Assembly: GCF_001547995.1 (NCBI RefSeq)
Contig: NZ_AP014690.1
Location: 434,001-498,000, forward strand
Direction of reading: 5' to 3'
DNA from: Asaia bogorensis NBRC 16594
GTDB lineage: Bacteria; Pseudomonadota; Alphaproteobacteria; Acetobacterales; Acetobacteraceae
DNA length: 64,000 bases
Position numbers and translations under genes: made by a program. Below the pieces are notes generated by a model that did not search any database, was not told the DNA's origin, and was given only the letters and a program-made list of their open reading frames with translations. This document shows positions 48,468-61,935 of the stretch, in pieces (the stretch's first letter is position 1; each line of letters opens with the position of its first letter).

Positions 48468-48643
48468 GTTTCAGGCCCGACCGGGAGGGCTAAAAGACCG
48501 GATGTGGGGGTATCTCTCGCCGCAATGATGATTGCCGGATGGATGTCGTGAGCCCGACAGGCAGGGCAATCTGTGACATTCGGTGATTTGGGGTTCATCC
48601 GGGGTTGAGCTATAAACCACCGCCTCAAAGGGGGAAAAACGGC

Positions 48644-50734
48644 GTGTTGGCAGAAGACATTACAGACAGCCTGTTGGCGGCACTGGACCGGCCTGACCTG
48701 CAAACCCTGTCCGATCAGGTCGTCTTCAATCTGTCGCCCCGCCTTACACGGCCCTTCATTGTTTCGGATCGGTCAATCACCCTCGGTGCCATTGCCTTCG
48801 GGCATCCGGATATCGCGCCGGTCTTGCTGCGCTACGCGCTTGAACTGGATTTCCTGTGCCGGGGACTACCTGTTGACGATCAGGCTGTCGCCATCGTGGT
48901 CGCTGCGCGCGTGGCCGCCCTGTTTCACCGTCTCGATTGTGTCACGCCCCATCTACCGCTCGAACTGACATGGCTGAGCGACTTTGCTGCCAGCCAGCCG
49001 CCGCCGCCCGAGCGCCTTGCAGCACTCTGGCCTGCCCTCACGCAGTTTCTGCCTGATGTCGCGCCTGAAATCCTGCGCGATGGCTGCGACAGTCATGGTC
49101 TTGTTGCCCGCCTTGCTCCCCTCTGGTCGTGTCTGGCCCCCGCTGAATATCTGATGGCCGATGGCGGCGACGAACGTCTCGTCATCAACCCTGAAACCGG
49201 GTTGAACCGGTACGGATGTTCCCATCGGCCCCGACCCTGGGCGGTGACATTCTCCTCCTCCACCGCGTCATCCCTGTCTGAGCGGGGATATCTGGGGGCC
49301 GAGCGGGCAAGGCGCGCTTTCGTGCTGGATGCGCTGACCGGTGGGGATGGTGCGGCATCCCGCGAGGCGGCGTGCCTGCAGGTGCGTCAGAAGATCGCTG
49401 CGCTATACGGGCTGGGATCACGCGACAATGTCATCCTTGCCGCATCGGGCACGGATTGCGAACTGGCCGTGCTGGCCATGGGGCTGATGCGTGCGCAGGG
49501 GCGTGCCATCGTCAATATCCTGATCGCCCCCGATGAAACGGGTAGTGGTGTTCCGCTGGCGGCGCAGGGACGGCATTTTGCTGCCGGAACCGCCTTAGGC
49601 AGTTCGGCCGACAAGGCCCGTCATCTTGAAGGCTTTCCTGCCGAGACGACCATACGCGGCATTGCCATACGTCTGGCTGATGGCACACCACGAACCTGCA
49701 CCGATCTCAACAAGGAGGTTGAGGCCGGGGTAAGGGAGGAGCTTGAAGCCGGGCACCATGTCATCCTGCATCAGCTCGATATGTCAAAGACCGGGCTGGT
49801 CGGGCCTTGTACCGACATGCTGTGTCGCCTCGCGGCCAGCTACCCCGAGCGGATCACGCTCGTTGTCGATGCCTGTCAGGCCCGGCTGGCACCGCATCGG
49901 ATCACCTCTCTCGTGCGCGCCGGCATGCTTGTCATGACCACGGGCTCCAAATTCCTCACAGGGCCACCTTTCTGCGGCGCGATCCTGCTGCCGGATTCCT
50001 TTACGGCAGCCCTCCCGCATTTCAGCCTGCCGCAGGGCCTTGGCGCCTATTTCCATCAATGTGACTGGCCTCATACGGCGTCGCCCACGCCACTTGGCTG
50101 CGATGGCAATCTTGGCCTCGCCCTGCGCTGGCAGGCTGCCCTGGCCGAGAGCGAGGCTCTTGCCGCTGTACCGGATGAGGAGATTGTCGATACGCTGCGT
50201 CGCTTCGAGCGCCATGCCCATGAGGTAATCGCGGCCCATCCTGCGCTGACCCTGCTCACCATGCCGTCTCTCGACCGGCGTGACGTGCAAGGCGAGGTCC
50301 TGTGGGATACGATCCCGACCGTATTCTCCTTTCTGGTGCACGACCCTGACCATCCGGAGAAACCGCTCGATCTCGAAAGATCGCGCGCGCTGCATCGCTG
50401 GCTGAACGCGGATCTTTCCCCCTGGGTGCCAGGTGAGGACCTTGCGCCGCTCCTGTGTCATCTGGGTCAGCCCGTGCCCGTGCCCCATCCGGCCCTTGGT
50501 GGCGAGAATGCCGGGGCGCTGCGCCTTTGCGCCGGGGCGCGTCTGGTTTCCGGCGAGCCGTCCCATGCCGGTCTGCCCAATGCTGTTCGGCTGGAGCGTG
50601 AATTTGCTGATGTGCGTCGGGCTCTGGCAAAGATTACGGTCATCCTCGATCACTGGACCCGCCTCGCGCCGGTCGATCCGCAGCCGCGCTATGCCCCTTA
50701 TGCCCACCAGCCGAGAAAGCCCCGTGCCTCATGA
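48644..50734 (+). CDS. large PLP-fold (aminotransferase class V-like) protein of unknown function
   Basis: A 696-residue protein. Residues 1-190 match nothing I recognise. From about 200 it has the shape of a fold-type I PLP enzyme: ILAASGTDCELAVLAMGL (phosphate/substrate loop), IAPDETGSGVPLAAQ, LVVDACQARL (Asp that pairs with the PLP nitrogen) and TTGSKFLTGPPFCGAIL (candidate Schiff-base Lys in GSKF). A C-terminal domain follows. I chose the GTG at 48644 because AAAGGGGG lies upstream; a TTG 13 codons earlier is possible. It overlaps the histidine phosphatase gene by four bases. Reaction unknown; a decarboxylase, lyase or aminotransferase would all fit. Confidence 0.65.
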   Translation: MLAEDITDSLLAALDRPDLQTLSDQVVFNLSPRLTRPFIVSDRSITLGAIAFGHPDIAPVLLRYALELDFLCRGLPVDDQAVAIVVAARVAALFHRLDCVTPHLPLELTWLSDFAASQPPPPERLAALWPALTQFLPDVAPEILRDGCDSHGLVARLAPLWSCLAPAEYLMADGGDERLVINPETGLNRYGCSHRPRPWAVTFSSSTASSLSERGYLGAERARRAFVLDALTGGDGAASREAACLQVRQKIAALYGLGSRDNVILAASGTDCELAVLAMGLMRAQGRAIVNILIAPDETGSGVPLAAQGRHFAAGTALGSSADKARHLEGFPAETTIRGIAIRLADGTPRTCTDLNKEVEAGVREELEAGHHVILHQLDMSKTGLVGPCTDMLCRLAASYPERITLVVDACQARLAPHRITSLVRAGMLVMTTGSKFLTGPPFCGAILLPDSFTAALPHFSLPQGLGAYFHQCDWPHTASPTPLGCDGNLGLALRWQAALAESEALAAVPDEEIVDTLRRFERHAHEVIAAHPALTLLTMPSLDRRDVQGEVLWDTIPTVFSFLVHDPDHPEKPLDLERSRALHRWLNADLSPWVPGEDLAPLLCHLGQPVPVPHPALGGENAGALRLCAGARLVSGEPSHAGLPNAVRLEREFADVRRALAKITVILDHWTRLAPVDPQPRYAPYAHQPRKPRAS

Positions 50735-51619: not shown

Positions 51620-51913
51620 CTACTCCACGACTGCGCACCACATATTCTCTATCTTGCCACCGAGTTTCCCAATTTCATCGAAGACCTTGAGAACGTGGTC
51701 GGTTTCGAGGTGGTGCTGGAGGCTGACTTCATCCTCCCACTCTTCGTTGATGGCAAATCGCCCCCTGTTTTCACGATCCTCGTAAACGACGAATCTCAGG
51801 CATCCCGCGTCCTGACGCGCCAGAACAGCGATGTCGCGCAGGAGGGTGCGGCAGGAAGAATGGTGGTCGTCAGCGACAATGACAATAGCGCTTACACATG
51901 ACTTGGCTGACAA
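51620..51913 (-). CDS. antibiotic biosynthesis monooxygenase (ABM)-domain protein
   Basis: A 97-residue dimeric alpha/beta-barrel type protein of the ABM/YgiN family, which includes quinol monooxygenases. CLRFVVYEDRENRGRFAINE then EWEDEVSLQHHLETDHVLKV is the family core (the EWxxxxxLxxHxxxxH pattern). The frame runs further upstream, but the TTG at 51913 with GGAGAG five bases before it gives the normal family length. Substrate unknown; YgiN-like proteins act on quinols, small ABM proteins on aromatic intermediates or haem. It stands alone between the phosphatase and LacI genes. Confidence 0.72.
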   Translation of the reverse strand: MSAKSCVSAIVIVADDHHSSCRTLLRDIAVLARQDAGCLRFVVYEDRENRGRFAINEEWEDEVSLQHHLETDHVLKVFDEIGKLGGKIENMWCAVVE

Positions 51914-52162
51914 GAATACTCTCCGCTTGGGGCTGGGTCCGGAATCTGACCTTTTACGCATGGCGCAGCGCAGAGTTGTTAAGCCTGACCTGCTGCCTAA
52001 GGCGCAGAAGGCACATGCGCGGGGTTGCGCCGCACGGGCAGCCGCACGGGCACACGGGTCGTGTGAAAGCATGTTCTTAACCGCGCAACCTGGCACGGAA
52101 ATACAATGATGACAGAAATGTCATTTACAGGATAGCAAGGATTCATCTACGCATAAGAAGAA

Positions 52163-52178
52163 GGTTAAACGTTTAACC
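52163..52178 (+). promoter_or_regulatory. perfect 16-bp operator before the LacI gene
   Basis: GGTTAAACGTTTAACC is a perfect palindrome with a central CG, 12 bases before the lacI-type ATG. LacI-family proteins bind palindromes of this form and usually control their own operon, so it is very likely the operator for the regulator-epimerase-ABC unit (inference). The rest of 51914-52190 carries no gene I can support. Confidence 0.75.
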
Positions 52179-52190
52179 AAGAGTATCGTA

Positions 52191-53219
52191 ATGGTTCGCA
52201 AGGCCGCCAAGGTATCGATCCGGGATGTTGCAGAAGCCGCAGAGGTTTCTGTAGCCACCGTTTCGAATGTGGTGCGCAACCGTAAAAACGTCTCCGATAC
52301 CGTGCGTCGTCGTGTCGAGGCGGCCATTGAGAGCCTCAATTATCTGCCTGACAGGGCAGCCATGCAGCTTCGTGAAGGGCGCACCCGCATCATCGGCGTT
52401 CTTGTGCCGAGCCTTGATAATCCGTTTTTCACGGCCATTATCGCCTGCCTCGAGGACTGCGCAATTCGTGATGGTTACGATATCATCGTTGCCAGCGCTG
52501 GCGAGGATACCGCACTGGCCTCCTCGCGGCTCAAGGCCCTGCTGGCGTGGCGTCCGGCTGGCATGATTGTTTTGCCCAACGACGATCGTTTTGAGGACTC
52601 TTCCCTGCTTGATGCGGCAGGGGTGCCTTATGTCGTGATCGATCGTTTGCCGCCTGCCTGTCGGGCCGATACGGTTGCCGCAGAAAACGAATATGCTGCC
52701 GCCGAAGCTGCTTCTTGTCTTGCCGGGCTGGGTCATCGTCGTATTGCCATTGTGGCTACGACGCTTTCATTGGCCAATATTCGCGAGCGTTGCGCCGGGA
52801 TCCGGACATTCTGTGCCCGTGAAGGCCTGCCCGAGCCGCAGGTTCTCGAAGTTGGCCATCATGTTGAGGACGATATCCCGTCTCTGCGCGCTTTGCTGGT
52901 GGGGGAAAACGCGCCCACGGCGATTATTGCGCTGACCAATTCCATCACTCTGGGGGCGCTGCGGTGCCTGCACCAGAGCGGATATGTCGTGCCCGATGAC
53001 GTGTCGCTTATCGGTTACGATGACTACGCATGGATGCGTGCCATGCTCCCGCCCATCACAGCGATACGCCAACCGGTGGAAGAGCTTGGGGCACAGGGCT
53101 GGACGCGCCTCATGCAACGTATTGCGGGCGAAAGCACTGCCTATCTGCAGGTCCGGGTGTCCTGCACGCTTGCGGTGCGCGGGTCGACCGCACCTCCCAG
53201 AACAGGAAAACGCTCATGA
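52191..53219 (+). CDS. LacI-family transcriptional regulator
   Basis: A 342-residue repressor. The N-terminal HTH is VSIRDVAEAAEVSVATVSNV and the hinge helix is RAAMQLREGRTR; the remainder is the sugar-binding core (IGVLVPSLDNPFFTAI, GMIVLPNDD, ISLIGYDDYAWM-like SLIGYDDYAWMRAMLPPITA). A perfect palindrome 12 bases upstream is its likely site. The stop overlaps the start of the epimerase gene by four bases (ATGA), so regulator and pathway genes share a transcript. The inducer is probably the imported sugar. Confidence 0.93.
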   Translation: MVRKAAKVSIRDVAEAAEVSVATVSNVVRNRKNVSDTVRRRVEAAIESLNYLPDRAAMQLREGRTRIIGVLVPSLDNPFFTAIIACLEDCAIRDGYDIIVASAGEDTALASSRLKALLAWRPAGMIVLPNDDRFEDSSLLDAAGVPYVVIDRLPPACRADTVAAENEYAAAEAASCLAGLGHRRIAIVATTLSLANIRERCAGIRTFCAREGLPEPQVLEVGHHVEDDIPSLRALLVGENAPTAIIALTNSITLGALRCLHQSGYVVPDDVSLIGYDDYAWMRAMLPPITAIRQPVEELGAQGWTRLMQRIAGESTAYLQVRVSCTLAVRGSTAPPRTGKRS

Positions 53220-54097
53220 ACAAGCTTGGACTCCACGCTTTCGTCTGGACTGCTGGCTGGACGCCAGAAGACGCCGCCATGGCGATCCGCTCGACGGCCG
53301 AACTCGGTTTCGATCTGATCGAGGCATCGACCATGGATCTCAAGGCATTCGACGTGCCAGCCACGCTGCGCGAACTCGAAGCCAATCGTCTTGGGATCAC
53401 CATGTCCTTTGGTCTGACTGCAGATATGGATATCTCCTCGGGTGACCCCGAGCGTATCCGTCGCGGGGAGGCGCATCTGCTTGATGCCATGTCTCTCGCG
53501 CGCGATGTCGGCGCAACCCATGTCTGCGGTATTCTTTATTCCGCCTTCCAGAAATACGCGACGCCGGTCACGGCAGATGGCGTGCGCGGCTCCATCGAGG
53601 TGGTGCGTCGCGTCGCCGAGAAGGCGCAGGCCAGTGGTATCACGCTGGGTATGGAAGTGGTCAATCGCTACGAGTCCAACGTACTCAACACGGCTCGTCA
53701 GGCCATTGCCTATGTGAAACGTGTCGAGATGCCCAACGTGAAGCTGCATCTTGATTGCTATCACATGAATATCGAGGAAGCTGATTCAGCCGAGGCTATT
53801 CGTGAAGCAGGCGATCTGTTGGGGTACTTCCATACCGGAGATTCCCATCGTGGTTATCTAGGCTCAGGGTCTGTCGATTTCCCCAGCATTTTCCGCGCGC
53901 TGGAGAGCATTCAGTATAAGGGACCGATTACCTTCGAGTCCTTCTCCTCTGCTGTGGTCGGTCAGCCGCTCGAAGGAATCCTGGGCATCTGGCGCAATCT
54001 CTGGGAGGACAGCCGCGATCTGGCCGCCCATGCCAAGGCCTTCACCGACGTGCAGATGAAATCGGCACGCGAGGCGCTCGGCCGCCAAAAGCGCTGA
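53216..54097 (+). CDS. ketose 3-epimerase (D-tagatose/D-psicose 3-epimerase family)
   Basis: A 293-residue TIM-barrel sugar epimerase. The four metal ligands of the DTE/DPE family can be placed: Glu147 in GMEVVNRYESNVLNTA, Asp180 in HLDCYHMNIEE, His206 in FHTGDSHRGYLG and Glu241 in ITFESFSSAV. The spacing matches the Agrobacterium D-psicose 3-epimerase with a constant offset of five. It would interconvert C3 epimers of ketoses such as fructose/psicose or tagatose/sorbose. It overlaps the LacI gene by four bases and precedes ABC transporter genes. Which ketose is natural cannot be told from sequence. Confidence 0.88.
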   Translation: MNKLGLHAFVWTAGWTPEDAAMAIRSTAELGFDLIEASTMDLKAFDVPATLRELEANRLGITMSFGLTADMDISSGDPERIRRGEAHLLDAMSLARDVGATHVCGILYSAFQKYATPVTADGVRGSIEVVRRVAEKAQASGITLGMEVVNRYESNVLNTARQAIAYVKRVEMPNVKLHLDCYHMNIEEADSAEAIREAGDLLGYFHTGDSHRGYLGSGSVDFPSIFRALESIQYKGPITFESFSSAVVGQPLEGILGIWRNLWEDSRDLAAHAKAFTDVQMKSAREALGRQKR

Positions 54098-54180
54098 ACC
54101 TACGGCCTATTTTCCTGAACCCCATCCCGTCACGAGGGTGTCCTGACGACACCCTGTGATGCTCTGAAAAGGTCGAGATC

Positions 54181-55197
54181 ATGACCCTTTCCCGTCGCGG
54201 TTTCATGGGCGTCGCCGCCAGTCTGACCGCTCTCACGCCTTTTGCCTCTGCGCGTTTCTCCGGTGCACATGCCGAAGGGGCCCAGAAGAAAATCGCCATC
54301 GTCGCCAAGATTGGCGGTATTCCGTGGTTCAATGCCATGGAGCGCGGTATTCAGAGCGCCGGCAAGGAGGCCGGGTGCAATGCCTGGATGATCGGTCCCA
54401 CCCAGGCCGATGCGGCTCAGCAGGTCAGCGCGATCGAGGATCTGATTGCCCGCAAGGTCGATGTGATCGGTGTCGTGCCCAATGATGCCAGTTCACTGGT
54501 GCCCGTGCTGCAACGCGCGCGCGCGGCAGGTATTCATGTCATCAGCCATGAAAGCCCCGGCCAGCAGGGTGCGGAATGGGATCTGGAATTTACCACCCCT
54601 GCGGCAGATGGCGAGCGTCATATGGAGGCGCTGGCCAAGGCCACTGGTGGCAAGGGCGGTTATATCATCATCGTCGGGTCGCTGACTGTTCCCCAGCACA
54701 AGCTGCGTGCCGATGCGGCTATTGCACTACAAAAGGCCAAATATCCCGACATGCATCTGATTGGTGATCGCTTTGGCTGCGGTGAGAGCGTGGATGACAG
54801 TTATCGCACCGTCATGGATCAGTTGCGCGCCCATCCCGACCTGACCGGCGTGCTTGCTTTCGGGTCGCAGGGGCCGATCGGGGCTGCGCGCGCGGTGGAT
54901 GCGCGTGGCAAGATCAGGACTGTCTCGGTGGTGGGACCGTTTTCGCCGGGACAGGGGGCGAAATATGTGCGCTCAGGCGCAATACGGTGTGGCTATATCT
55001 GGAACCCGCTTCTGGCTGGGCAGACCCTCGTGCGTCTGGCCATGATGATGGCCACAGACAAGCCCATCACCAATGGCATGGACCTGACCGATATCGGTGC
55101 CTTGCAGGTTGATCCGGCCCAGCGCAGCATTCTTGCACCTAAGATGCAGATCATTGATCGATCGACCATTGATGCGCTGGTGGCGCTAGGGCTGTGA
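54181..55197 (+). CDS. sugar ABC transporter substrate-binding protein (RbsB/RhaS-like)
   Basis: A 338-residue periplasmic binding protein with a Tat-type signal peptide (SRRGFMGVAAS at residues 4-14, cleaved near residue 34), so it is likely exported folded. The body is the type I sugar-binding fold: PWFNAMERGIQSAGKEAGC, AIEDLIARKVDVIGVVPND, and GVLAFGSQGPIGAARAV near the C-lobe. RhaS, LsrB and erythritol-type proteins are close in design. It would bind the sugar for the ATPase and permeases that follow; the gene overlaps the ATPase by four bases (GTGA). Confidence 0.88.
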   Translation: MTLSRRGFMGVAASLTALTPFASARFSGAHAEGAQKKIAIVAKIGGIPWFNAMERGIQSAGKEAGCNAWMIGPTQADAAQQVSAIEDLIARKVDVIGVVPNDASSLVPVLQRARAAGIHVISHESPGQQGAEWDLEFTTPAADGERHMEALAKATGGKGGYIIIVGSLTVPQHKLRADAAIALQKAKYPDMHLIGDRFGCGESVDDSYRTVMDQLRAHPDLTGVLAFGSQGPIGAARAVDARGKIRTVSVVGPFSPGQGAKYVRSGAIRCGYIWNPLLAGQTLVRLAMMMATDKPITNGMDLTDIGALQVDPAQRSILAPKMQIIDRSTIDALVALGL

Positions 55198-56681
55198 CCG
55201 GCGCGGTCTTTCTGGAACTGCGGAATGTGCACAAGACATTCGGCAGTTTCCAGGCGCTGCGCGGGATCGATTGGGATGTGCGCGAAGGCGAAATCCATTG
55301 TCTTGTGGGCGAAAACGGATGCGGCAAATCCACGCTGATCAAGGCCGTATCAGGCGTCCACGCCCCCGACCCGGGGAGCGAAATCCGCATTGGTGGTCGG
55401 GATGTATTGCCGCTTGATCCGATGCGCGCCCGTGCTCTGGGCATTCAGGTGGTGTTTCAGGATCTCGCCCTTTTCCCCAATCTGAGTGTGGCTGAAAACA
55501 TCGCCTTTGACGCCAACCTTGGGCGCGGCTTCAGTCCGCGTGCCTCAATCCGGCAAAAGGCCAGGGAGATACTGTCCCGTCTGGGGCATGAACTGCCGCT
55601 GGATTGCCCTGTCGATGCGCTCTCGATTGCCGAGCGACAGATCGTGGCCATTGCGCGTGGCCTGGCGGGTGAAGCGCGCCTGATTTTCATGGACGAGCCC
55701 ACGGCGTCGCTCACGCGCGCCGAGGTACGCCGCCTGCTTGATCTGGTGCGTAAGCTCTCATCGGAGGGGATTGCGATCGTCTTCGTGTCGCATCGCCTTG
55801 ATGAGGTCTCCGCCATTGCCGAGCGTATCACGGTGATGCGCGATGGCCGGATGGTGGGTACGTATCCTGCCGCCAGTCTCGACCAGAGAACGCTGATCCA
55901 TCTCATGACCGGGATCGAGATTGCGACCCATCATGTTCCCCGCGATTGCAGCGCTCGTCCGGCCTTGCTCGAAACCTGCCAGCTTACGCGCAAGGGCGAG
56001 TATGAAAACGTCTCGATCACGCTGCATGAGGGCGAGGTTCTGGGCCTGACCGGTCTGCTGGGAGCTGGACGGACCGAATTTGCCCTCTCACTTTTCGGCA
56101 TGACCAGACCGGATTCCGGCAAAATGCTGGTTCATGGCCAGGAATGTCGTTTTCAGACCAATCAGGACGCCCTTGCAGCAGGTCTGGCTTACGTCTCTGA
56201 AGACAGGCTCAATCTCGGGATCAATGCGGAGCAATCCATCGTCGATAATCTCGATGTTGCCGTTCTGCCAAGTCTGGCCAATCGTTTTGGCTATATTTCC
56301 GATCAGGCGCGCGCGCAGCTTGCCCAGGATTGGGTGGCACGGCTCAATATCAAACTGAATTCGGTGCATGATGCCATCAACACGCTTTCAGGTGGTAACC
56401 AGCAACGCGTGATTCTGGCACGCTGGCTTGCATCCCATCCCAGAATTCTCATCCTCGATAGCCCCACAGTGGGGGTGGACATCAAGAACAAGGAGGGGAT
56501 CTACGCTCTGATCCGCGAATTGAGCGCTCAGGGTGTGGGTATTCTCGTGATCTCCGACGAGATGATCGAGCTTTTCGCCACCTGTGACCGCATCCTGCAT
56601 ATGCGCAGTGGCCGTATCGCGGGTGACTACTCCCCCGCACACATTACCGAACAGGCGCTGGAGGCGCGGATCTATGCCTGA
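55194..56681 (+). CDS. sugar ABC transporter ATPase (two fused ATPase domains)
   Basis: A 495-residue CUT2-type importer ATPase with two nucleotide-binding domains. Domain 1 has Walker A GENGCGKST (around residues 40-48), LSIAERQ signature and FMDEPTASL Walker B; domain 2 has LGAGRTE in place of a canonical Walker A and the LSGGNQQRV signature followed by LILDSPTVGVD. This asymmetry (one degenerate site) is normal for RbsA/XylG-type proteins. GTG start, overlapping the binding-protein gene by four bases. It powers the two permeases encoded next. Confidence 0.93.
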   Translation: MTGAVFLELRNVHKTFGSFQALRGIDWDVREGEIHCLVGENGCGKSTLIKAVSGVHAPDPGSEIRIGGRDVLPLDPMRARALGIQVVFQDLALFPNLSVAENIAFDANLGRGFSPRASIRQKAREILSRLGHELPLDCPVDALSIAERQIVAIARGLAGEARLIFMDEPTASLTRAEVRRLLDLVRKLSSEGIAIVFVSHRLDEVSAIAERITVMRDGRMVGTYPAASLDQRTLIHLMTGIEIATHHVPRDCSARPALLETCQLTRKGEYENVSITLHEGEVLGLTGLLGAGRTEFALSLFGMTRPDSGKMLVHGQECRFQTNQDALAAGLAYVSEDRLNLGINAEQSIVDNLDVAVLPSLANRFGYISDQARAQLAQDWVARLNIKLNSVHDAINTLSGGNQQRVILARWLASHPRILILDSPTVGVDIKNKEGIYALIRELSAQGVGILVISDEMIELFATCDRILHMRSGRIAGDYSPAHITEQALEARIYA

Positions 56682-57693
56682 TTTTGCTACGCTGCGCAGC
56701 CGGCCTGAATTCTGGCTGGCTGGTGTGATTGTCATTTTCGGCGCCGCCCTGTCTTTGTTGACGCCAAGTTTTCTCAGCCTGTCGAATGTCGTCGATCTGA
56801 CTGAGAGCTATGCCGTACAGGCCATTATGGCCACCGGGCTTTTCGTCGTGCTTATCGCAGGAGGCATCGATATCTCCTTCGCGGCGACGGCTTCGGTGGC
56901 GCAATATGTCGCGGCTCTACTGGCCACGCGTTATGGGCTCTCGCCCTTTCTCGTTATTCCCGCAGGCCTTGTCGTTGGGACGGGGCTGGGCTTTCTGAAC
57001 GCCGCGCTTATCCATTATGCGCGTGTTAATTCCATCATCATCACCATCGCGACCATGAATGTCTATTTCGCCCTGCTGATGTACGCCACGGGTGGGCATT
57101 CCATCTATAATCTGCCCGATTGGTGGAGCGAGCGCGTGACGTTCCTGCAATTCGAGACATCGGGTGGCGATCTCATACGCATCACTTTGCCCATCGTGGT
57201 GATGATGGTGTCGCTCCTGCTCTGCTGGGTCCTGCTCACCCTGTCCAGAACCGGCAGGCAGCTTTACGCGATGGGCGGCAATGCCGAGGCGGCGCGTCGC
57301 ATCGGCCTCAATATCTCGAAGCTGCAGTTCTTTGCTTATGGCTTTGCCGGTTTCATGGCGGCTCTAGCGGGGCTGGTCCAGGCTAATCGCGTGGGTGAAG
57401 CTGTTCCCAACGCACTTTATGGTACGGAATTATCAGTCCTCTCCGCTGCTGTTCTGGGCGGGGCGTCGCTATTGGGTGGTGTCGGTACCATTGGCGGGAT
57501 CACACTGGGTATCCTGCTGCTCGCCATCATCCAGAACGGGCTCAATCTGCTCGATATCTCTCCCTACTGCTTCGAGATCATCACCGGCGCGATCATTCTC
57601 GCCTCCACGACGCTTACGGCCCTCTCGGTCCAGAGCCGCAAGCGCTCCCGGCTTGTCGAGGAAGCGCCAATGGGGGAGCAAGCCCATGTCTGA
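56674..57693 (+). CDS. sugar ABC transporter permease 1
   Basis: A 339-residue CUT2 (RbsC-like) permease with eight to ten hydrophobic helices. VVLIAGGIDISFAATASVAQ and GGNAEAARRIGLNISKLQFF (cytoplasmic coupling loop) then AVLGGASLLGGVGTIGGITLG are characteristic. The ATG at 56674 overlaps the ATPase end by eight bases; a longer frame exists upstream but lacks homology. A second, different permease gene follows with an eight-base overlap, so the membrane part is a heterodimer. Confidence 0.9.
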   Translation: MPDFATLRSRPEFWLAGVIVIFGAALSLLTPSFLSLSNVVDLTESYAVQAIMATGLFVVLIAGGIDISFAATASVAQYVAALLATRYGLSPFLVIPAGLVVGTGLGFLNAALIHYARVNSIIITIATMNVYFALLMYATGGHSIYNLPDWWSERVTFLQFETSGGDLIRITLPIVVMMVSLLLCWVLLTLSRTGRQLYAMGGNAEAARRIGLNISKLQFFAYGFAGFMAALAGLVQANRVGEAVPNALYGTELSVLSAAVLGGASLLGGVGTIGGITLGILLLAIIQNGLNLLDISPYCFEIITGAIILASTTLTALSVQSRKRSRLVEEAPMGEQAHV

Positions 57694-58723
57694 AAATCTG
57701 CCGGTCACCGGGAATACGACAGGACATTCTGCCTCCATGACTGATCTCGCCACCCCGTTCCGCAGGCTGTTTCCTGCGCCTGTGTCGGGGCAGACTCTGG
57801 CCACGCTGGCGCTCGCCATCGGATTCAGCCTCATCGTACCCGGGTTTTTCAGCCTCGGTTCCATGCGCTCCATGATGTTTCAGCTGCCGCAGCTTGGCCT
57901 TCTGGCCCTGGCCATGGCCATTCCCATGATGTCGGGTGGATTGAATCTGGCGATCATCGCGATTGCCAATGCCTGCGGACTCGCCATGGTGACGGTACTT
58001 GGCCATCTACCCCTGGAGGGACATGGTGCGGGTTACGTGGGATTCTGCATCGTGATCGCTCTCATGGCAGGGGCGGTGCTGGGGACGGCGCTGGGGGGCG
58101 TCACCGGATGGCTGATCGTGCGAACGAAAGTCCATCCTATTCTGGTCACGCTCGGGATCATGTCGATTGTCGAGGGCACGAGCATCTGGCTGACACGCGG
58201 TGAGGTGGTGTCGGGCCTGCCGGCCCTTTATGGCCAGATCGGCAACGCCTCACTGGTCCAGATACCGCTGGCCTTCCTCGCCTTTCTGGCGGTCGCGGGG
58301 GTTGTTCATCTGCTGCTTCAGCATACGGCCTTCGGGATTTCGATCCGCATGATCGGGTCGAATGCGCTGGCCACACGCTATTCGGCAATCGATGTCGATC
58401 GCGTGACAATCAGGATCTACGCGCTTTCAGGCTTCCTGTGCTTCTGCGCTGCCTGCCTGATGCTGGCGCGGTTCAACTCGGCCAGTGCTGCCTATGCCAA
58501 ATCCTATCTGCTTGTCACGGTTCTGGCGGCCGTTCTGGGTGGGGTCGACCCCAATGGCGGTTTCGGGCGGGTGACAGGGCTGGTTCTGGCCATGATCATG
58601 CTTCAGCTGATCGCAACCGGGTTCAATCTGCTCGGCTTCAGCGATTATCTGACACTCGCCATCTGGGGGCTGGTGCTGATCGGGGTGGCCTGTGCCCAGT
58701 CTTCATTCAAAAAGAGGCGTTGA
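57686..58723 (+). CDS. sugar ABC transporter permease 2
   Basis: A 345-residue CUT2 permease, homologous to but distinct from permease 1. AMAIPMMSGGLNLAIIAIAN, the IGSNALATRYSAIDVDRVTI coupling segment and VLAAVLGGVDPNGGFGRVTG are the equivalents. A 25-residue hydrophilic N-terminus precedes the first helix. The ATG at 57686 follows GGGGGAG and overlaps permease 1 by eight bases. It ends the six-gene ketose locus; no terminator hairpin with a T-tract is obvious after it. Confidence 0.9.
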   Translation: MSENLPVTGNTTGHSASMTDLATPFRRLFPAPVSGQTLATLALAIGFSLIVPGFFSLGSMRSMMFQLPQLGLLALAMAIPMMSGGLNLAIIAIANACGLAMVTVLGHLPLEGHGAGYVGFCIVIALMAGAVLGTALGGVTGWLIVRTKVHPILVTLGIMSIVEGTSIWLTRGEVVSGLPALYGQIGNASLVQIPLAFLAFLAVAGVVHLLLQHTAFGISIRMIGSNALATRYSAIDVDRVTIRIYALSGFLCFCAACLMLARFNSASAAYAKSYLLVTVLAAVLGGVDPNGGFGRVTGLVLAMIMLQLIATGFNLLGFSDYLTLAIWGLVLIGVACAQSSFKKRR

Positions 58724-59388: not shown

Positions 59389-61935
59389 GTGAGTAGCTCC
59401 ATACGTGTTTTGAGTTTTTTTGTAGGCCTTGTCATAGGCCTGCTGGGCGTCGGCCTGACCTTGGGAGGTATAGACCTCGCCTGGCTGGGCGGTAGCTGGG
59501 CGTATATTCTTCTGGGGCTGATGATGGCCTTTGTCGGCTTTGCCGTCATGGCCCGCAAGGCGATCGCCTTGCCAGTCTCCATTCTGCTCAGTCTTGTGGC
59601 CGCCGGTTGGGCGTTCAGTGAAGTGGGTGATGTGTTCTGGCTGGTTGTGCCGCGCGTCGTCGTGTTCATTGCCCTGCCGATTGTCGTCGGTCTGCTGGCC
59701 CCGGGTTTCGGTGCCTCGTCGCGTTCGGGCGAAAAGGGGGCATTGCGTTCAAGCGCTGTGCCGCGCGCCTGGGGTTTCGGCATTGCCTCCCTCTATGCGA
59801 TCATTTTCTGCGGGATCTCGCTGGGCATGTTCCAGCCCCATGCCGAAGTCACAGGCAATGCAGCTGACGCGCCGAAGCCTGACACGGCCCTTGGCCAGCA
59901 GAACGGCAATGACTGGCCAGCCTGGGGGCGTAACCTCACGGGTGACCGCTTTGCACCCTATGTGCAGATCAATGCCGGGAACGTTTCGGACCTGAAGCTC
60001 GCCTGGAGCTTCCATACCGGCGATCTTGCCATCGATGGCGCCGAGTATCAGGTCACCCCGCTCAAGATTGCCGACACGCTTTATCTCTGCACGCCGCTCA
60101 ACAAGGTGATTGCGCTTGATCCGGTCACGGGCAAGGAGAAATGGCGCTTTGACCCGCATATGCAGGTGACGCGCGGCAACAAGGGCTGGAAGCGCTGCCG
60201 TGGCGTAAGCTACGCGGATATGACAACCATGTCGCTGCTTGCACCGGATGCCAAGGCTTTCGGCCCGCAGGACGTAGCCGATACCACTACAGCGCCGTCT
60301 GCTGCCGGGGCCGCTGCCTCCGCAGACATCGCGCCTGCCGCTTCCGTCTTGCCGGCTGCGCCTGCGCCAATCGATGCGTCAGCGCCTTGCGCAAGACGCA
60401 TTGTCAGCACCACCAATGATGCCCGCCTTTTCGAGCTTGATGCCGCTACGGGTGCCCTGTGTCAGGATTTTGGCGACCATGGCATGGTCAACCTGCTCGA
60501 GGGTCTTGGCCCCACGGCACCGGGATCCTATTACCTGACATCTGCGCCGCTGGTGGCAGATGGCGTGATCATGGTGGGTGGCAAGATCAACGACAACATG
60601 ACCGTGGGTGAGCCTTCCGGCGTCATTCGTGGCTACGATGTCCGTACGGGTCGTCTTGTCTGGGCCTGGGATGCCTCGCGCGGAAACCGCGACAGCCGCC
60701 CGCTTCCTGCGGGTCAGATTTATGCGCCTGAGACGCCCAATTTCTGGGGCACGGCGTCTTACGATCCCAAGCTCGGCCTTGCCTTCATTCCGATGGGCAA
60801 TCAGACACCCGATTTCTGGACTGGTAACCGTCATCCCTATTCGGATGAATACAACGATACCATCCTGGCGCTCGATCTGCGCACGGGTCAGGAACACTGG
60901 CATTTCCGTACCGCCAATAACGACATGTTTGATTATGACGTGACGTCGCAGCCGATCCTGTACGATCTGCCCGGGGCGAATGGCGAGACGGTTCCGGTTG
61001 TGGTTGGCCTGACCAAGCGCAGCCAGATTTTCGTGCTCGACCGCCGGACCGGCAAGCCTGTGGTCAAGGTGACAGACCGCAAGGTTGCAACCGATGGTAT
61101 GCCCGGCCAGCGCATCAGCCCGGTCCAGCCCTATTCCGACCTGTCGATCGGTGTTGCGCCGCTCAAGGAAAGCGACATGTGGGGGGCAACGATCTTCGAT
61201 CAGCTCTATTGCCGCATCGCCTTCAAGAAAATGCGCTGGGAGGGTGAATGGACTCCTCTGAGCGACAAGCAGAAAACCCTGATCTGGCCCGGTTATTATG
61301 GTGGGTCCAACTGGGGTGGTGGCGCGCTCGACCCGCAGACCGGCGTGTTGGTGGTGAATGATATTCGCATGGCTATGTGGGGTCAGTTCATCAAGCGCGA
61401 GGAAGCCGCCCATGCGGGTCTCGTTCCCTCCACCGAAGGTGAATATTCGGAGCAGCTGGGCACACCCTGGGGTGTGGAGCGCTCGATGTTCGTTTCGCCC
61501 ATGGGAGCACCCTGCTTCAAACCGCCCTACGGTTCACTGACGGCCATTGACCTCAAAACCCAGAAAACGCTCTGGCAGGTGCCAGTGGGCAGTATTCAGG
61601 ATGCCGCCATTCACGGGGTTTTCGGGCAAAAGGGAATCATTCCGCACATCTATATTCCGGTCGGTATGCCCACCATGGGTGGCCCGCTGCTGACAGGCGG
61701 TGATCTCGCCTTCTTCCATGGCTCGCTCGATAATTACCTGCGCGCCTTTGATCTGAAGAGTGGCAAGGAAGTCTGGCGTCAGCGCCTGCCGGTAGGTGGT
61801 CAGGGTACGCCGATGAGCTATGTCCAGAACGGCAAGCAATATGTTCTGGTTGTAGCGGGCGGGGCGACACGCACAGGCACGAACGCCAATAAGGGCGACT
61901 ATGTTCTGTCCTACGCGTTACCCTCAGCGCCCTGA
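59389..61935 (+). CDS. gcd: membrane-bound PQQ-dependent dehydrogenase (glucose/quinate family)
   Basis: An 848-residue quinoprotein. Five membrane helices (about residues 5-150) anchor it in the inner membrane, with a periplasmic eight-bladed propeller after NDWPAWGRNLTGDRFAPYVQ. WKRCRGVSY, NFWGTASYDPKLGLAFIPMG, the active-site Asp in MFDYDVTSQPILYDL and Lys in GLTKRSQIFVLDRRTG match the E. coli Gcd type; electrons go to ubiquinone. It oxidises D-glucose to gluconolactone, or quinate/shikimate in sister enzymes. It is about 50 residues longer than Gcd because of an Ala/Pro-rich insert near residues 290-335. GTG start behind AGGA. Substrate (glucose versus quinate) is not proven. Confidence 0.88.
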   Translation: MSSSIRVLSFFVGLVIGLLGVGLTLGGIDLAWLGGSWAYILLGLMMAFVGFAVMARKAIALPVSILLSLVAAGWAFSEVGDVFWLVVPRVVVFIALPIVVGLLAPGFGASSRSGEKGALRSSAVPRAWGFGIASLYAIIFCGISLGMFQPHAEVTGNAADAPKPDTALGQQNGNDWPAWGRNLTGDRFAPYVQINAGNVSDLKLAWSFHTGDLAIDGAEYQVTPLKIADTLYLCTPLNKVIALDPVTGKEKWRFDPHMQVTRGNKGWKRCRGVSYADMTTMSLLAPDAKAFGPQDVADTTTAPSAAGAAASADIAPAASVLPAAPAPIDASAPCARRIVSTTNDARLFELDAATGALCQDFGDHGMVNLLEGLGPTAPGSYYLTSAPLVADGVIMVGGKINDNMTVGEPSGVIRGYDVRTGRLVWAWDASRGNRDSRPLPAGQIYAPETPNFWGTASYDPKLGLAFIPMGNQTPDFWTGNRHPYSDEYNDTILALDLRTGQEHWHFRTANNDMFDYDVTSQPILYDLPGANGETVPVVVGLTKRSQIFVLDRRTGKPVVKVTDRKVATDGMPGQRISPVQPYSDLSIGVAPLKESDMWGATIFDQLYCRIAFKKMRWEGEWTPLSDKQKTLIWPGYYGGSNWGGGALDPQTGVLVVNDIRMAMWGQFIKREEAAHAGLVPSTEGEYSEQLGTPWGVERSMFVSPMGAPCFKPPYGSLTAIDLKTQKTLWQVPVGSIQDAAIHGVFGQKGIIPHIYIPVGMPTMGGPLLTGGDLAFFHGSLDNYLRAFDLKSGKEVWRQRLPVGGQGTPMSYVQNGKQYVLVVAGGATRTGTNANKGDYVLSYALPSAP

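Follow-up and report, generated by a model that had tools for sequence, protein, structure and literature searches.

How a rare sugar could be imported and put to use by an operon that encodes no kinase for it is the question raised by a set of six genes in Asaia bogorensis NBRC 16594, a flower-dwelling acetic acid bacterium. The genes lie within a stretch of 64,000 nucleotides (the window; positions 434001-498000 of a one-contig genome of 3,198,265 bases), where they are read co-directionally from the + strand between window positions 52191 and 58723 and encode, in order, a LacI-family regulator, a 3-epimerase, a periplasmic sugar-binding protein (SBP), a double-domain ATP-binding cassette (ABC) ATPase, and two permeases (Table 1). 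Together, their products probably take up a rare sugar resembling fructose and turn it into a common one. Taken as a whole, the locus is best explained, with moderate confidence, as an autoregulated LacI operon for ketose import and 3-epimerization, D-psicose (allulose) being the most likely sugar; the import of a free ketose together with its epimerization at C-3 is, as a separate proposition, highly probable. An earlier reading of the DNA (the original prediction) held that all six genes overlap or nearly abut. Four junctions do overlap, by 4 (LacI/epimerase), 4, 8, and 8 bases; the epimerase and SBP genes, however, are separated by 83 bases, the sole real gap in the operon. That the operon encodes no sugar kinase was correctly recognized, none being found among the Pfam families of its six products.

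According to the mechanism proposed, LacI would bind a palindrome just 5' of its own start codon and block transcription; the ketose or its epimer would release it, and all six genes would then be transcribed. The SBP, putatively exported by the twin-arginine translocation (Tat) pathway, would capture the ketose in the periplasm for import, unphosphorylated, by a CUT2-type ABC transporter. In the cytoplasm, the metal-dependent 3-epimerase would invert C-3 and so render the ketose usable by resident kinases; D-psicose would thus be converted to D-fructose and, by a fructokinase-like enzyme encoded elsewhere in the genome, to fructose-6-phosphate.

The pairing of the regulator with this palindrome is very probable. 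The protein possesses the helix-turn-helix domain and periplasmic-binding-like core of its family, and a perfect 16-bp palindrome, GGTTAAACGTTTAACC, ends 12 bases 5' of its ATG, as first described. With two mismatches or fewer, the palindrome was not encountered in 100 shuffles of the window, and the 3.2-Mb genome contains one perfect copy; at up to three mismatches, three genomic sites were found compared to six for a backwards control pattern, and hence only the perfect site stands out. In an alignment of approximately 150 bases 5' of LacI from eight Asaia sequences (A. bogorensis included), all 14 columns of the palindrome core, GTTAAACGTTTAAC, were invariant in each of the eight sequences, as were 20 of the 149 remaining columns. 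Ten genomes were scanned for the exact core and for LacI. In all six with an orthologous LacI (76-100% identical), the core occurs once, at this locus; it was found neither in Asaia G228 (best LacI match, 31%) nor in Swaminathania G008 (where no match to LacI reached E 1e-30), nor in two genomes of other Acetobacteraceae genera (G217 and G251) with a LacI that is 52-54% identical, and the backwards control had no match in the ten. Related palindromes, AAACGTTT, are located in G217 and G251 within the intergenic region that separates LacI from the divergently oriented transporter genes, and an operator-like palindrome similar to these is present in a Rhizobium locus (L078). Among 1303 transcription factors of the LacI family, 1251 have even palindromes and 1173 a central CG, and the local regulators are mostly autoregulated (PMC4052901; papers cited by PMC number are drawn on in excerpt). 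The Asaia site, too, is an even palindrome with a central CG near the gene of its presumed regulator. Core conservation, the single copy per genome, and co-occurrence with an orthologous LacI therefore make a local, one-operon, autoregulated LacI system a well-supported prediction, in keeping with the self-regulation initially claimed.

The second gene product is a predicted ketose 3-epimerase (D-tagatose/D-allulose family; 118.8 bits to PF01261), in agreement with its earlier assignment. Its closest solved chains are D-allulose/ketose 3-epimerases (8yeb and 5zfs, E ~4e-83), with an L-ribulose 3-epimerase (3vyl) close behind. Residues E147, D180, H206, and E241, which we take to be the Glu/Asp/His/Glu metal ligands that the enzyme had been said to retain, are invariant in all 11 aligned epimerases, and the same letters appear in the three solved chains with alignments. 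The gene is under strong purifying selection, its dN/dS relative to A. lannensis being ~0.02.

The remaining four genes encode what appears to be the proposed ABC importer of ketoses, of the CUT2 type: an SBP, a fused double ATPase, and two BPD_transp_2 permeases (Pfam). The N-terminus of the SBP, MTLSRRGFMG, includes a twin-arginine motif (SRRGFM; RRxF). Its presence had been noted and described as uncommon; the first part of this statement stands and the second does not, because the motif was counted in 33 of 47 SBP homologue entries (with L071 and L146, where no start was found, scored as lacking it, L092 and L098 scored positive despite sequences that do not resemble genuine Tat signals, and L045, with RRNS, missed by the pattern). 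The twin-arginine signal, from which export is predicted, is thus a habit of the family and no special feature. The closest PDB chains of the SBP are 3d02 and 9i1m, for which the matches name no ligand, and a search of the open-access literature returned no relevant paper tying 9I1M or 3D02 to allulose or sugar-binding proteins. In nine SBPs chosen for motif alignment from five catabolic contexts, the motifs GGIPWFN, VVPND, HESP, GSLTVP, and FGSQGPIG are invariant, which suggests a shared ligand class; these motifs may line the cleft.

The absence of a kinase was placed in context by examining homologous loci. The epimerase was detected in 19 of 299 sampled genomes of the family at E 1e-60, and scanning of named genomes yielded 119 confirmed relatives, the best 80 of which supplied the epimerase loci used. 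A transporter, taken to be present where an SBP at least 43% identical and an ATPase at least 48% identical occurred anywhere in the fetched stretch, was found in 41 of these 80. One of three kinase types lies within the fetched stretch of 31 of the 41 loci: an FGGY kinase with a fuculose-aldolase type enzyme (23 loci), an FGGY kinase only (one), or a P-loop kinase (seven, a query for which showed that several Burkholderia loci, seemingly kinase-less at first, have one). Five of the other ten loci are from Asaia; the rest (L084, L100, L103, L119, and L126) are kinase-less only for the three types searched, and L103 is at a contig end. A midpoint-rooted tree was built from SBP and ATPase sequences with 33 rows (32 chosen loci and the window), in which L119, L126, and the E. 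coli and Pantoea rows sit on long branches and the 'nokin' labels predate the P-loop kinase search. In it, Asaia clusters with the two other Acetobacteraceae that have this LacI (100/100), and the clade so formed joins the 14 FGGY-plus-aldolase rows (100/100). Since no kinase was seen beside the operon across the Acetobacteraceae clade (L045 being read only from open reading frame (ORF) starts), its absence seems to be characteristic of this clade. The missing kinase is genuine, yet lineage-specific, as most transporter-bearing relatives have a kinase in the locus.

Phosphorylation of the product by a general kinase, as originally envisaged, would depend on genes outside the operon, and fructokinase-like ones do exist: a ROK kinase and a PfkB kinase each have fructokinase as their best NCBIfam match, albeit below the curated cut-offs (354 bits versus 443 and 149 bits versus 450, respectively; kinases were scored as matched stretches, most of them not full genes). 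A D-tagatose kinase (NF049991; 454 bits versus a cut-off of 420) is encoded at 3005356-3006348 of the genome, where inspection by eye shows a short-chain dehydrogenase/reductase and a sugar protein of the major facilitator superfamily as neighbors. An FGGY-type kinase beside a DhnA/LsrF-like aldolase (genome 756827-759030; NCBIfam, below cut-offs), with a zinc dehydrogenase and a GntR-type regulator seen by eye nearby, is likely another sugar or polyol locus. In the genome as a whole, five matches to PF00370 (FGGY) and two to PF00596 (class II aldolase) were recovered; a tblastn search with the Rhizobium-type kinase and aldolase, made against the stretches around family and kinase matches only, gave no more than distant similarity (best matches, 30% over 66 amino acids at E 2e-5 and 28% over 116 amino acids at E 5e-5).

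Which sugar is imported can be approached through the company that the transporter keeps. On a Pantoea plasmid, a homologue (SBP, 54% identical) stands in one gene row with genes for a D-allulose-6-phosphate 3-epimerase, an allose kinase, and a ribokinase, each over its NCBIfam cut-off. Since D-psicose 1-phosphate is a possible substrate of fuculose-type aldolases, the kinase and aldolase of Rhizobium would fit D-psicose as well. Because of the Pantoea module and the published psicose systems of the Rhizobiales (PMC7445875) and Klebsiella (PMC6020474), D-psicose is the best single guess for the main substrate, with a chance that falls just short of even. The sugar, the inducer, and the kinase named here are all candidates.

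Several observations tell against the explanation favored here. The palindrome, at -28 to -13, is nearer the start codon than is usual for the LacI family, more than 75% of whose sites are at 140-30 bp upstream (PMC4052901), and the Asaia LacI is only 23% identical over 171 amino acids to the LacI beside the ketose operon of A. larrymoorei. The epimerase scores 191 bits against the cut-off of 300 for the NCBIfam D-psicose 3-epimerase equivalog (NF051856), for which reason it is filed only as a ketose 3-epimerase, and the two fructokinase matches fall below their cut-offs, as given above. The nearest transporter clade outside the Acetobacteraceae is accompanied by the FGGY kinase and fuculose-aldolase type enzyme, which allows other ketoses, and L-sorbose, L-ribulose, and others fit too. 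In E. coli, DNA similar to the Pantoea transporter genes occurs in 142 of 5426 genomes, in no case over 80% of the query, and the one locus read has pentulose enzymes: araD, an L-ribulose-5-phosphate 3-epimerase, and an FGGY kinase. Finally, no such transporter accompanies 39 of the best 80 epimerase loci, nor the LacI and epimerase that A. lannensis and A. astilbis retain; import is thus not the sole role.

These last two species underlie an alternative that is compatible with the favored explanation and has a respectable, if less than even, probability: LacI and the epimerase would form a core whose ketose is either intracellular or imported by other means, with the transporter as an optional, exchanged add-on. 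In both, LacI, the predicted operator, and the epimerase are found at the same place and the transporter is absent there, with no close SBP homologue elsewhere in either genome (best E 6e-16 in A. lannensis and 3e-8 in A. astilbis, the assembly of the latter being 88% complete); the transporter is dispensable in that two Asaia species keep only LacI and the epimerase. The strong constraint on the epimerase relative to A. lannensis points the same way. Between A. bogorensis and A. krungthepensis, synonymous divergence is 0.39-0.50 for the transporter genes and 0.55 for the epimerase, compared to 1.18 for LacI and 1.32 and 1.34 for two upstream genes. Moreover, flanking genes for an ABM-domain protein and a PQQ-dehydrogenase are common to A. 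bogorensis, A. lannensis, and A. astilbis, and were not found in the examined stretches of other Asaia. It is reasonable to read these values as a sign that Asaia lineages have exchanged the epimerase-transporter block, the divergence baseline being the flanking genes only. Epimerase divergence is itself fairly low across the bogorensis, lannensis, and krungthepensis pairs (0.45-0.66), and its being low for A. lannensis too weakens the reading and keeps it limited. Furthermore, in two outgroup genera (Acidisoma G217 and G251) the transporter accompanies LacI and the epimerase, such that it may have been present ancestrally and subsequently lost. In the drafts of A. prunellae (L070) and A. platycodi (L071), some operon genes are in pieces, through either frameshifts or sequencing errors.

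Less probable, though still to be reckoned with, is that the bacterium itself produces the imported sugar by periplasmic oxidation of polyols (sorbitol to L-sorbose, for example, or ribitol to L-ribulose) and salvages it by uptake, epimerization then giving L-tagatose or L-xylulose, respectively. A. bogorensis has genes for a membrane-bound sorbitol dehydrogenase and a PQQ glycerol dehydrogenase (PMC4596401), L-sorbose and L-ribulose are products of such oxidation in acetic acid bacteria (PMC9171043), a close solved match of the epimerase (3vyl) is called an L-ribulose 3-epimerase, and the E. coli transporter homologue is accompanied by the pentulose-type exit. However, the FGGY and class II aldolase matches of the genome (five and two, respectively) are at most distantly similar to the Rhizobium enzymes, such that L-tagatose or L-xylulose would need another route, and the Pantoea allulose-6-phosphate module points to the D-series. 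Lsr-like import of autoinducer-2 (AI-2), a notion prompted by plasmid records naming several homologous SBPs as AI-2 binding proteins and by a weak match of the upstream ABM-domain gene to the LsrG model, is very improbable and was set aside, given that LsrB (82.6 bits versus 384), LsrA (398.5 versus 586), and LsrG (29.2 versus 135) all fall below their cut-offs, the WDSD, TDQ, and PDA segments of LsrB, presumably its AI-2 contacts, stand opposite HESP, PQH, and FGS in the alignment, and the partner enzyme is a ketose 3-epimerase.

A broader proposal is speculative, with the balance against it. One ketose transporter with shared SBP motifs would have been plugged into at least five catabolic exits across the Proteobacteria; for Asaia and related Acetobacteraceae, all that is left of the exit would be a single epimerase feeding the general fructokinase, with LacI and the epimerase as a stable core and the transporter as an exchangeable add-on that recovers ketoses released by the cell's own periplasmic dehydrogenases.

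Table 1. Predicted genes and sequence features of the Asaia bogorensis ketose operon (window coordinates).
Feature	Position	Strand	Basis
LacI-family regulator, 342 aa	52191-53219	+	Pfam PF00356, PF13377 (LacI + Peripla_BP_3)
Predicted ketose 3-epimerase, 293 aa	53216-54097	+	PF01261 (AP_endonuc_2, TIM barrel); PDB matches 8yeb, 5zfs (best), 3vyl
Periplasmic sugar-binding protein with predicted twin-arginine signal, 338 aa	54181-55197	+	PF13407 (Peripla_BP_4)
Double-domain sugar ABC ATPase, 495 aa, GTG start	55194-56681	+	PF00005 (ABC_tran), two stretches
ABC permease 1, 339 aa	56674-57693	+	PF02653 (BPD_transp_2)
ABC permease 2, 345 aa	57686-58723	+	PF02653 (BPD_transp_2)
Candidate palindromic LacI-type operator GGTTAAACGTTTAACC	52163-52178	no strand	Palindrome scan; core invariant in Asaia
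Conserved upstream island TGAC-N6-GTCATTT	52110-52128	+	Asaia upstream alignment
Putative intercistronic RNA hairpin, epimerase-SBP gap	54128-54161	+	Fold energy; recurs in Asaia

Other signals may be embedded in the operon. The island upstream of the palindrome (Table 1) is largely conserved in the Asaia upstream alignment and is the genome's only exact match to its pattern; it is possibly a promoter or the site of a second regulator. Scans gave five promoter sites versus 3.2 +/- 1.6 in shuffles and six terminators versus 5.8. The region upstream of the Swaminathania epimerase weakly resembles the Asaia LacI promoter region (best E 0.002). At the 3' end of LacI (window 53091-53216), synonymous divergence is low (0.09-0.38) in all nine Asaia pairs compared, and this patch is possibly an overlapping signal for translation of the epimerase. 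The gap between the epimerase and SBP genes has a fold z-score of -4.38, and the hairpin within it folds in all six transporter-bearing Asaia, with 86.9% of cells paired as opposed to no more than 56.0% when the structure is slid by one to three columns. Covariation did not rise above that of shuffles (244 of 500 reached the observed value), so only folding energy and recurrence argue for the hairpin, and no Rfam family matched over its gathering score. That it sets the level of SBP mRNA is a guess.

Among the neighboring genes, a membrane PQQ dehydrogenase (window 59389-61935; TIGR03074 over cut-off) lies directly 3' of the operon, and its gene adjoins the LacI-epimerase pair in A. lannensis and A. 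astilbis also; judging by gene order, it is possibly the 'IDH (PQQ1)' inositol dehydrogenase of the genome paper (PMC4596401, in excerpt). On the minus strand at 51620-52096 is the ABM-domain ORF, with weak similarity to LsrG and a first start that is probably too early; in A. lannensis and A. astilbis, too, it is found 5' of LacI. Further upstream, a 709-residue protein (window 48605-50734) matched neither Pfam nor NCBIfam at E 0.001; versions that are 65-78% identical are encoded in seven stretches from Asaia and Swaminathania, of which two are partial.

D-Psicose is a commercial rare sugar, the natural bacterial metabolism of which is covered by few papers in the open-access literature searched. 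With its predicted sensor, operator, transporter, and epimerase, the operon offers a compact set of parts from which to build a biosensor or a system for the uptake of allulose. Asaia species with and without the transporter provide a natural comparison for the role of the epimerase. That a shared transporter is found with different exits suggests that one class of ketose is used through several unrelated pathways.

Among the papers that searches of the open-access literature on psicose/allulose transport, 3-epimerases, and acetic acid bacteria listed, no title or abstract opening described this operon, and in the main text of the A. bogorensis genome paper, as excerpted, the terms epimerase, psicose, allulose, and ABC transporter are absent (PMC4596401). 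Comparable systems are nonetheless known. The psi operon of the Rhizobiales (Agrobacterium and Sinorhizobium) is governed by PsiR, a LacI-family regulator with D-psicose as inducer and a 20-bp operator; as predicted for the Asaia regulator, with which it is likened by description only, it autoregulates a sugar operon, but psiR is divergent from psiA, whereas LacI leads the operon in Asaia (PMC7445875). The psicose locus of Klebsiella pneumoniae also combines a permease, deletion of which impairs growth on psicose, with an epimerase, the permeases being compared by description only; unlike the Asaia operon, it takes a phosphorylated route with an annotated ribokinase-type kinase and an allulose-6-phosphate 3-epimerase (PMC6020474). 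Closer in sequence are loci of Rhizobium, Aureimonas, and Mesorhizobium (L078, L131, and L137), the SBPs, epimerases, and LacI proteins of which are 57-59%, 60-64%, and 35-40% identical to those of Asaia, respectively; these loci are arranged divergently and include an FGGY_C_2 kinase and a class II fuculose-aldolase type enzyme, neither of which is encoded in the Asaia operon. A plasmid locus of Acidisoma sp. PAMC 29798 has the same six gene types and, among its listed genes, no kinase; it differs in being plasmid-borne and in having LacI and the epimerase divergent from the transporter genes. Although the core of the original prediction is largely borne out, the uniqueness that it implied is not upheld, and the Asaia operon is a kinase-less version of a known type of ketose operon.

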